Shown one piece after another: positions 56,182 through 59,096 of a DNA stretch of 64,000 bases. How positions within the stretch are numbered: position 1 is the stretch's first letter; every line of letters starts with the position of its first letter. The stretch is from a virus: IMG/VR virus record IMGVR_UViG_3300021171_000012, positions 1 through 64,000 of that record; one strand, 5' to 3'. Below the pieces are notes generated by a model, which worked only from the letters and a program-made list of their open reading frames with translations, did no database searches and had not been told where the DNA came from. A program made the translations under genes and the position numbers.

Positions 56182-57537
56182 TCAGTTAATAATCTCCACA
56201 AGAAACTCATTAAGTGCAATGTCAGCAGCGACGGTAGTAGAATTGCCTGTTATTGCAACTAATATAGCTCCGCTCTCGGTTGCGGTGGTCAGTGTCGGAG
56301 CCTGATAGCCTAAATGCGCTACGCCAGCGCCTTTGCCATTCGAGGTTGCTATCTGGGTATTCGACGCTGCTGCGCCGTATTTGAAAACATCGGCAGAAAT
56401 AAACCAACCCCCAGTCGCACCGCTAGTTGTAATGGTTCCAGTGTCTTCGACAGTCGTTCCCCCCGTAACGGCGCTACCAAGTACTGCTGTTGTCGCATTA
56501 AAGATTATTTTAATTCGCTTATTGTTCGCATTCGACCCCAGAGATCCCTTCGCTGATATACAAACGCCGCGCCCTGCAACGTCGAAAACATTCGCCGGAA
56601 TGCTATATACAGCGATAACGTTGTCATTACCTGTCGACCCTGGAACAACGCCGGCGCCGCTGATCGAGCGCGCCAAGGTTCCGATCAACGATACTGGCGC
56701 TACTCCTGACGAGCCAGCCCCTGGCAACAAGGAAGATGCTAATAGCCTAATCGAGATCGCCCCAGGTCCGGTGTAGGTAACTAAGAATAGACTGGTGCTA
56801 TTTCCAGGAAATACACTTGCAACACCGGATAGCGTTACCCCGGAACCCGCTGCAAGAGTTCCATTATACGGAGAAGTGTTTATATATGTAAGTATCCACG
56901 ATTGTCCGATTGACGGATTCGGTATTGCAGCAATTATATTCGCAGCAGTGTCTGTTGTGTCAGTAAATGGTCCGTTTGGCCCCGATCGAGTAATAACTGC
57001 TCCAACTATAGCAGCGGCAGTCAAAGTCCCAGCACCGACAGTAGTAATAGCCGTATTCATATCCGCCGCGCCAACGGTATTAGCCGCAATGGCCATTCCC
57101 GTCATTGAAACTGCGGCGGCGCCAGTATAGGACAGCAGGAAAATTCCGGTCGAATTTGCAGGAATTACTGAAATACCCGCAAGAGTGACTCCCGAGCCTC
57201 CAACTATGGTTTGGTTAAACGGGGTCGTGTTATTGATAAAAACAAGCCAAGCGGTGTTAAATGGGGACTCGGGAGCTAGAGTTCCAATAATATTGGTCGC
57301 ACTGTCAGTCGTATCAGTAAAGGCCGCCGATGGGCCGGTTCGAGTTATGAAACCCCCTACTATTCCCGCCGCCGACAATGTTCCATTAGACCCCGTTGCG
57401 ATAAACGTATTAACCTGTGGTGGGAATGAATCCGCCAGCGCAGCGATCTGTTTTGTCGTTATCATAGACGGCGAGATAACGCCGCCGCTGGCGGTTTCTG
57501 AGATAGTCTGTTCTGTTCCGAGTAATGGTCCGGCCAT
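56182..57537 (-). CDS. Fibre-like protein with a duplicated ~95-residue domain
   Basis: 451 residues from the ATG at 57537 (gggagaag upstream). Two related segments stand in tandem: FITRTGPSAAFTDTTDSATN with GSGVTLAGISVIPANSTGIF, and VITRSGPNGPFTDTTDTAAN with GSGVTLSGVASVFPGNSTSL. A C-terminal beta domain (GNDNVIAVYSIPANVFDVAG) follows. The tandem domain layout fits a tail fibre or a decoration protein. Immediately upstream lies the homing cassette. Confidence 0.68.
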   Translation of the reverse strand: MAGPLLGTEQTISETASGGVISPSMITTKQIAALADSFPPQVNTFIATGSNGTLSAAGIVGGFITRTGPSAAFTDTTDSATNIIGTLAPESPFNTAWLVFINNTTPFNQTIVGGSGVTLAGISVIPANSTGIFLLSYTGAAAVSMTGMAIAANTVGAADMNTAITTVGAGTLTAAAIVGAVITRSGPNGPFTDTTDTAANIIAAIPNPSIGQSWILTYINTSPYNGTLAAGSGVTLSGVASVFPGNSTSLFLVTYTGPGAISIRLLASSLLPGAGSSGVAPVSLIGTLARSISGAGVVPGSTGNDNVIAVYSIPANVFDVAGRGVCISAKGSLGSNANNKRIKIIFNATTAVLGSAVTGGTTVEDTGTITTSGATGGWFISADVFKYGAAASNTQIATSNGKGAGVAHLGYQAPTLTTATESGAILVAITGNSTTVAADIALNEFLVEIIN

Positions 57538-57553
57538 GTTAGGCTTCTCCCGA

Positions 57554-57580
57554 CTAAAGAGCAAACTCAGGCGGCGGAAT
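57554..57580 (-). repeat. Relic of the 3' end of the DUF2163-like gene
   Basis: These 27 bases encode IPPPEFAL and a stop, the same peptide as the end of the tail gene at 58143-58169. They lie behind the homing endonuclease gene instead of the tail gene. The nucleotide differences are at third codon positions. Confidence 0.85.
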
Positions 57581-57581
57581 T

Positions 57582-58127
57582 TTAAATGTCTAATACAATG
57601 CCGGGTATGGCCTTGCTTATACGTACTCGTGAAGATTTCGTAGTAGCTAATACATTATCAATCTCATCGTATTCTCTATATAGGCGAATAGTGGTTAGAG
57701 CCTCCGCTAATTGTGCAACATCTGCCCACAACGCAGGATTACTCTGCTTCAATCCACCATGTATGTCCCTACTGCAACATGCAAGTACCGCCAGTCTCCA
57801 TATAGCAAAATCTGAAGCCTTTTTTGCACGAAGCGGGTACTTATCAAATATATCTACTAGAACTCTGCAATCTTCCCGGGCGCTAACTGCATACACAACT
57901 GTTGGATTCAAACGACTATGATCTCTATCTGCGTATATATTGCCTACCCCCACTTTATTACGTACTTCCACTAAAATCTTATAATCGTCTGCGCGCAGAC
58001 GAAGTTGAAAACTACATGTATATCCATATCTATTCTTTCCACGCTCAACGCGTCGAGTTATACTGAAACTACCTTCTCCATCGGTAAATCCTGCAAACCA
58101 ATGAAAAAATGCATCATCTTCAGACAT
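57582..58127 (-). CDS. LAGLIDADG homing endonuclease with VLDI tail
   Basis: 181 residues. FHWFAGFTDGEGSFSI is a LAGLIDADG motif with both catalytic-type acids. YTCSFQLRLRADDYKILVEV and LVDIFDKYPLRAKKASDFAI are typical of the single-motif, homodimeric bacterial and phage type. It ends PGIVLDI. The gene is free-standing and is flanked by two copies of the 3' end of the DUF2163-like gene, so its target is probably the end of that gene. It would cut phages that lack the cassette and so spread it. Confidence 0.88.
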   Translation of the reverse strand: MSEDDAFFHWFAGFTDGEGSFSITRRVERGKNRYGYTCSFQLRLRADDYKILVEVRNKVGVGNIYADRDHSRLNPTVVYAVSAREDCRVLVDIFDKYPLRAKKASDFAIWRLAVLACCSRDIHGGLKQSNPALWADVAQLAEALTTIRLYREYDEIDNVLATTKSSRVRISKAIPGIVLDI

Positions 58128-58142
58128 ATCAATCTCTCTCGA

Positions 58143-58169
58143 CTAAAGTGCAAATTCGGGCGGGGGTAT
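58143..58169 (-). repeat. Active copy of the gene end duplicated behind the homing endonuclease
   Basis: ATACCCCCGCCCGAATTTGC and the last bases to the stop encode IPPPEFAL. The copy at 57554-57580 encodes the same peptide with five synonymous changes. The similarity continues a few bases past the stop (TCGAGAGAG against TCGGGAGAA). Confidence 0.85.
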
Positions 58170-59096
58170 GTAGGGCATTCCGCCGAACCGAGCTAGATTT
58201 TGAAACGTCCCATTACAGGTTGCAGTTGTATGGTCACAGCCAGGTAGAATGTAGAATGTATCACCGGCAGTGACTAAGCTCAGCCACGGTTTAATCAGAT
58301 AGACAAATCCAGGTTGAATAGAACTAATCGTCCGTGTCTGGCCAGCGTTTGCGCCGGTTAGACACACAATAGTTCCATCATTATAAACCGTTGCCGGCGA
58401 TGGGCTGAAGCTAGTAGCAACAGCACCGCCCCCACTACTGGACAGAGCAGTAATATTAACCAAACCAATCCCTGTCGACGTTCCATTCGCCGCGGTGCCA
58501 GTTACTCGATTATAGCCGCATCCAACATCACCGAAGACATGACTACACGATGACATGAACATCCTTCGAGGCATCTGCTGAATCTGAAGCAGATTCATCA
58601 TTGATTTTACTTTTATCATTACTTTCGATCGCCCAACGTCGCAATCAGCAACCCGACCATAGAACCAGATTAAACAACCTAAAGCTCCTGTGTCGATATG
58701 ATCTCCAATCGGGGGCGGGGCAAACAGACGGTCTAGTTCAATCGTTGCGCCATCGAACAACCCGATCCTAACTGCCTCAGCGAAAGGCGTTTGTCCGACT
58801 AAGTCATTAATACTCGGATAAACTTCAATATCAAGTTCCGCAGGTTCAATCCCAATCTTTACTGTCGCTTTTGTTGGTCCGAACTTCGGCCCCGCGGCGA
58901 AAAATGACACAGGAAATACAGTTAACAAACTCCCCGCTGGGAAACTCGAACTAGGCACGGCTAGGGGCGATGTCCAAGACGTGTAGAACAGGGTAGGGGA
59001 ACCAACCAGATCAAATGTATACAGATCCACAATCGCCGCGGCTAAATTCGCTGGATTCGCCAAATATGCTTTAAGGGCCGGCGTACAGGGTCTCAT
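58143..59096 (-). CDS. DUF2163-like tail protein
   Basis: 317 residues. MRPCTPALKAYLANPANLAA, IVDLYTFDLVGSPTLFYTSW, ELDIEVYPSINDLVGQTPFA and, near the C-terminus, CSHVFGDVGCGYN followed by GCDHTTATCNGTF, as in DUF2163/phage_BR0599 proteins (GTA gp13). Such proteins are part of the tail tip. It ends IPPPEFAL. ATGA overlap with the gene before it. Confidence 0.85.
   Translation of the reverse strand: MRPCTPALKAYLANPANLAAAIVDLYTFDLVGSPTLFYTSWTSPLAVPSSSFPAGSLLTVFPVSFFAAGPKFGPTKATVKIGIEPAELDIEVYPSINDLVGQTPFAEAVRIGLFDGATIELDRLFAPPPIGDHIDTGALGCLIWFYGRVADCDVGRSKVMIKVKSMMNLLQIQQMPRRMFMSSCSHVFGDVGCGYNRVTGTAANGTSTGIGLVNITALSSSGGGAVATSFSPSPATVYNDGTIVCLTGANAGQTRTISSIQPGFVYLIKPWLSLVTAGDTFYILPGCDHTTATCNGTFQNLARFGGMPYIPPPEFAL

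Follow-up and report, generated by a model that had tools for sequence, protein, structure and literature searches.

A homing endonuclease gene between two synonymous copies of a phage tail gene end, with counterparts at other phage genes

The tail gene locus

We examined a 64,000-nt stretch of phage DNA (hereafter the window), part of a 70,983-bp virus record in IMG/VR. On its minus strand a tail protein gene is followed by a LAGLIDADG homing endonuclease gene, by a second copy of the tail gene's own end and by a further gene (Table 1). The tail gene product scores for PF09931 (E 2e-18) and PF09356 (E 1e-17) in the Pfam profile search and matches PHROG 778, tail assembly. This bears out the DUF2163-like assignment made in a preliminary description, which was prepared from the letters and open reading frames of the window, and the positions given there for the nuclease gene and for both gene-end copies agree with our ORF and sequence check. 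The nuclease gene has its own start and stop, is preceded by the stop of the host gene, and lies in a different frame from the gene-end copy behind it. The first 8 nt of the spacer before it are copied from the host intergenic sequence. The next gene begins at 57537 if its ATG is used; the 460-aa version listed for it (56182-57564) starts from an upstream TTG inside the relic. Its product is repetitive, with only a weak PHROG match, and the gene stands between the tail hub gene and an NlpC/P60 gene, which are close neighbors in relatives; it may be another, later insertion.

Table 1. Features of the tail gene locus, in the coordinates of the window
Feature	Position	Strand	Basis
Phage tail protein gene (baseplate hub / DUF2163-BR0599), 317 aa, 3' end replaced	58143..59096	-	Pfam, PHROG
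Copy in use: gene end, putatively recoded and part of the cassette	58143..58169	-	recoded status from the capsid analogue
Short spacer before nuclease start, with GAGAG ribosome-binding-like sequence	58128..58142	-	
LAGLIDADG_1 homing endonuclease gene, 181 aa, single motif FAGFTDGEGSF	57582..58127	-	Pfam
Relic of the putative original gene end, one base past the nuclease stop	57554..57580	-	
Putative original intergenic sequence, with GGGAG ribosome-binding-like site still used by the next gene	57538..57553	-	
Next gene, structural-type, about 451 aa from ATG at 57537	56182..57537	-	

Both gene-end copies encode IPPPEFAL followed by a stop. The copy in use is ATACCCCCGCCCGAATTTGCACTTTAG (codons ATA CCC CCG CCC GAA TTT GCA CTT TAG) and the relic is ATTCCGCCGCCTGAGTTTGCTCTTTAG (codons ATT CCG CCG CCT GAG TTT GCT CTT TAG). 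Of the 27 aligned positions five differ, and each of these is a third codon position, as first described; P = 0.0013 for this under random placement over the 24 coding sites. The repeat continues for 8 nt beyond the stop (TCGGGAGA / TCGAGAGA) and holds one difference there before the match ends, and the two differences reported earlier for this part were slightly off; the whole repeat is 35 nt long with 29/35 identical. The match is not due to chance: this pair has 5 mismatches, and no other 27-mer of the 64-kb window comes closer than 9. Codon usage (lnL -8.4 for the relic and -11.0 for the active copy) weakly favors the relic as the original end.

Among relatives of the tail gene we found 25 with a readable end, at approximately 50–58% amino acid identity. 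All 25 have the C-terminus once, with no nuclease behind it, and are usually followed by NlpC/P60; the C-terminus itself is conserved through the family, the relatives ending in GGFPYIPPPE-x-A-x-stop. The repeat in the window was therefore copied from the gene. Searches of IMG/VR, GTDB genomes and GenBank phages returned no closer cassette-free relative of the window phage than 56–58% amino acid identity, a peptide search likewise gave nothing closer, and a degenerate DNA pattern for PYIPPPEFA found two distant contigs only. Since no close cassette-free relative was found, the direction of change in the window is argued by analogy: the capsid case below, together with the weak codon usage signal, speaks for the relic as the original end.

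The 181-aa nuclease scores for LAGLIDADG_1 (PF00961) at 71.8 bits against a cut-off of 23.1 (E 9.8e-20), in agreement with its earlier assignment; this is its single domain, and the Pfam search found no other. Within its motif FAGFTDGEG, residues D16, G17, E18 and G19 are invariant in 22 relatives. The AlphaFold model (mean pLDDT 88) has the alpha-beta-beta-alpha-beta-beta-alpha fold of LAGLIDADG_1 endonucleases, with I-TnaI (5gkk) as the best PDB match by Foldseek (E 7.5e-10) and the I-OnuI family also matched. By profile, conserved motif and predicted fold, the nuclease looks intact.

Recurrence among relatives of the nuclease

We collected 61 relatives of the nuclease. For 35 free-standing, non-redundant loci, including the window, the two flanks of each nuclease were compared with each other and set against mispaired flanks; five loci gave p < 0.01, against approximately 0.35 expected. 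For some 30 of these 35 loci the screen detected no duplication, which means that relics decay or that this mode of insertion is not universal.

By inspection, the same arrangement was found in at least five relatives, where the host is a capsid gene (three lineages), a terminase gene or a gene for a 241-aa protein. The capsid termini are AKGAA-stop (L057), VWAKGIG-stop (L060/L061) and, with its copies reading INGAS and VNGAA-stop, that of L143 (the contig of L079). The host at L065 encodes the terminase large subunit (YGGVFA/YGGVYA-stop); at all of these loci the nuclease gene is antisense. Cassette-free relatives of the L065 terminase have the terminus once only, and at L065 itself the original end behind the nuclease keeps the start codon of the next gene. 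The 241-aa case is L033 (terminus IEDP-stop), and a search for its relatives returned L033 alone. Insertion points are in coding sequence, 4–8 codons before the stop. Over six 3'-end cases, 21/25 differences between copies are at third codon positions. The L143 copies differ in protein too, and thus not all cases are purely synonymous.

One locus, L077 (2900–3500), is probably a 5'-end counterpart of the gene-end cassette, with a DNA methylase gene as host. A shortened copy of the methylase start (MKLVTRKLKSLKP and a stop) precedes the nuclease gene, which is followed by an intact methylase gene with a recoded start (MKLKTVSLKALKP...). Many other relatives of the nuclease are fused in frame within DNA methylases, as in Taj_79; gene-end duplications were looked for in these methylase-fused members and none was seen. 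Repeats at L058, L044 and L066 were judged weak or due to chance, and wide-window repeat matches at L063, L041 and L035 were judged low-complexity noise in GC-rich loci.

Group I introns (RF00028) were found in two contigs of the same nuclease subfamily, L055 and L062, and L071 fell just below threshold. At L055 a weak intron match encloses the nuclease gene. Further intron copies are present in the intron-bearing contigs.

Capsid genes with and without the nuclease

Using the L060 capsid as query we obtained 56 capsid loci, of which L097 is the same contig as L060. The preliminary description had predicted that the gene end of a cassette-free relative should match the relic, and at this homologous capsid locus it does: loci L099–L102 are free of the cassette, their capsids are 98–99% identical in amino acids to that of L060, and their gene end, GTGTGGGCCAAGGGCATTGGCTGA, agrees with the L060 relic at 24/24 nt and with the copy in use at 18/24. 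At L060, therefore, the relic preserves the original end and the newcomer is the copy in use.

The newcomer has relatives of its own. In the 364 nt that precede the end, L097 and L101 differ by 6.6%, but their last 33 nt are 24% different (binomial P 0.001). Those last 33 nt of L097 are close to those of L125, L121 and L114 (9–12%), which are 16–21% different upstream. L114 and L115 are in turn 7% apart upstream and have the following gene in common, and are 24% apart in the last 33 nt. The motif TCN TTT GGN GTA TGG GCC AAR GGN ATA GGN occurs in 6/56 capsid loci, accompanied by the nuclease in L097/L098 and L125, and not in L114, L141 and L121; the latter look like resistant alleles that lost the nuclease or never received it. 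The evidence on polarity and mosaicism, which comes from metagenomic contigs and one nuclease lineage, marks the recoded capsid end as a transferable module whose presence gives the capsid gene its mosaic structure.

In other phages, L112 and L113, the same capsid 3' end has an antisense remnant of an HNH/NUMOD-like nuclease between the capsid gene and the next (approximately 2508–2980). Homing nucleases from more than one family may thus favor this site as a hot spot.

Origin of the arrangement and known counterparts

Sequence comparison establishes the anatomy of these loci, the synonymy of the copies and the recurrence, and in the capsid lineage it further identifies an ancestral relic and an imported, mosaic end. 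The whole is very probably explained by a homing cassette, neither intron nor intein, that carries a protein-neutral, putatively cleavage-resistant replacement for the 3' end of its host gene. The preliminary description had proposed a cassette with a recoded host 3' end, and the capsid polarity test, the transferable recoded end and the recurrence elsewhere all support that proposal.

Three other explanations were weighed. Nothing need have been imported if insertion of the nuclease gene duplicated the target site and the two copies then drifted under purifying selection; at a single locus the same anatomy would be expected, and the window copies differ by only 6/35 nt. An untranslated relic should, however, drift at every codon position, whereas third positions account for all the coding differences in the window and most of those overall, and the capsid relic shows no change while the end in use there is common to distant phages. 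Duplication in place is thus unlikely. Most free-standing phage nuclease genes are intergenic, and the seg and mob genes of T4, like the ICP1 nuclease genes, are located between genes. An ordinary nuclease of this kind in an intergenic gap, beside an incidental repeat left by unrelated recombination, would suit the majority of surveyed loci with no detectable repeat; yet the repeat abuts the nuclease in the window and in several relatives whose hosts are unrelated genes, and what it duplicates is the terminus of the host gene itself, so that this account is very unlikely.

The poorest candidate, and one that we regard as scarcely credible, is a mobile intron or intein, in which the nuclease would belong to a spliced element and the relic would be the 3' exon. 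Insertion inside coding sequence is as expected for such elements, and the intron-bearing contigs of the subfamily (L055 and L062, with L071 as the near miss) point the same way. Yet RF00028 found no match at the window locus (L002), L033, L057, L060, L065, L077 or L143, in a search that does work since L055 and L062 were matched strongly in the same run. The host gene is, moreover, already complete with its own stop before the nuclease gene, which has its own start and stop, is out of frame with the relic, and at L057, L060, L065 and L143 is antisense. An intein is excluded because of the reading frames.

Under the cassette explanation, the mobile unit would consist of the recoded last 8 codons and stop, the short spacer and the nuclease gene. 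We infer that the old end is cut, that the recoded end resists cutting, and that homing proceeds by repair during co-infection. In a tail gene still free of the cassette, the nuclease would cut the conserved 3' end, and repair from the cassette-bearing genome would insert the cassette, using homology on both sides (the host gene upstream, the gene end and intergenic sequence downstream). The recoded end would complete the host gene with the same protein and should escape cutting, while the old end would become an untranslated relic on the far side of the nuclease gene, preserving the downstream homology and the ribosome-binding site of the next gene. Invasion would require neither RNA nor protein splicing, and because re-spelled codons are brought along an essential gene could be invaded without breaking its protein. 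The relic may reasonably be taken to predict the cleavage site, to within the insertion junction only. When the empty site is rebuilt, a 9-bp inverted repeat with a 7-nt spacer spans it (CGGCGGAAT-GCCCTAC-ATTCCGCCG) and resembles a homodimer target; it was set aside and is not used as evidence, because it arises mostly from Gly-Gly and Pro-Pro codons and its odd spacer is unsuited to the 4-nt LAGLIDADG overhang.

WHO elements of Torulaspora and Lachancea yeasts are neither introns nor inteins: the unit is a resistant FBA1 3' end with a nuclease gene, the host gene becomes a chimera, a fragment of the old 3' end persists beyond the nuclease gene, and 3' ends are mosaic (Coughlan et al., 2020; PMC7282813). 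In fungal mitochondria, mORFs (Allomyces atp6; Glomus atp6, atp9, cox2, and nad3) comprise a LAGLIDADG or GIY-YIG gene near the 3' end of the host gene, and carry a divergent, protein-equivalent C-terminus with the native one behind the ORF; the carried C-termini have been interpreted as foreign, acquired via horizontal transfer (PMC3630166).

The window resembles a WHO locus in that a nuclease gene has the complete host gene on one side and a 3'-end fragment of that gene on the other, and it resembles mORFs in the C-terminal duplication beside a nuclease gene with the putative native end behind. As in both systems, the native end at capsid L060 is that of uninvaded relatives and the end in use is imported. 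WHO elements, however, occupy a yeast nuclear gene, encode an intein-derived zinc-finger HO-type protein and have a 3' fragment of approximately 400 bp, whereas the phage cassettes encode a small single-motif LAGLIDADG_1 protein, have a gene end of approximately 27–35 bp, and use several host genes, often in antisense orientation. The intein-like region and zinc finger are absent, and the phage cassette would therefore function like a WHO element while not being one itself. Unlike it, mORFs reside in organelle genomes, have mostly longer duplications (51–238 nt) and include some in-phase host fusions. The window cassette is the WHO/mORF strategy in a different protein family and setting.

Among phage systems, the T4 Seg/Mob and ICP1 nucleases are free-standing beside essential phage genes and are thought to spread in co-infection (PMC10448857); a term search of the text of that ICP1 survey found no mention of host gene ends being recoded or duplicated. 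Taj_79 has a LAGLIDADG nuclease inserted in a phage DNA methylase (PMC9957025). It belongs to the same nuclease subfamily (39% identity), but unlike the window nuclease it is fused in frame inside the methylase, and no duplicated gene end was seen. A full-text literature search, with subscription papers outside its scope, returned no published phage example; priority is not proven by this.

The re-spelled gene end answers how a homing nuclease with neither intron nor intein can target essential phage coding sequence. Each locus is a matched substrate pair, with the old target kept in the relic and the protected version in the recoded copy. Phage capsid genes show sharp synonymous mosaicism at their 3' ends, which the cassette explains as well; recoded ends found without a nuclease would be drive-resistant alleles, in line with gene-drive theory. 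We consider it rather probable that phages hold widespread self-rescuing homing elements that put recoded codons in place of the last few codons of essential structural genes (tail hub, capsid and terminase), with resistant alleles that outlast the nuclease in populations. If so, these would be natural counterparts, in phages, of engineered "home-and-rescue" gene drives.
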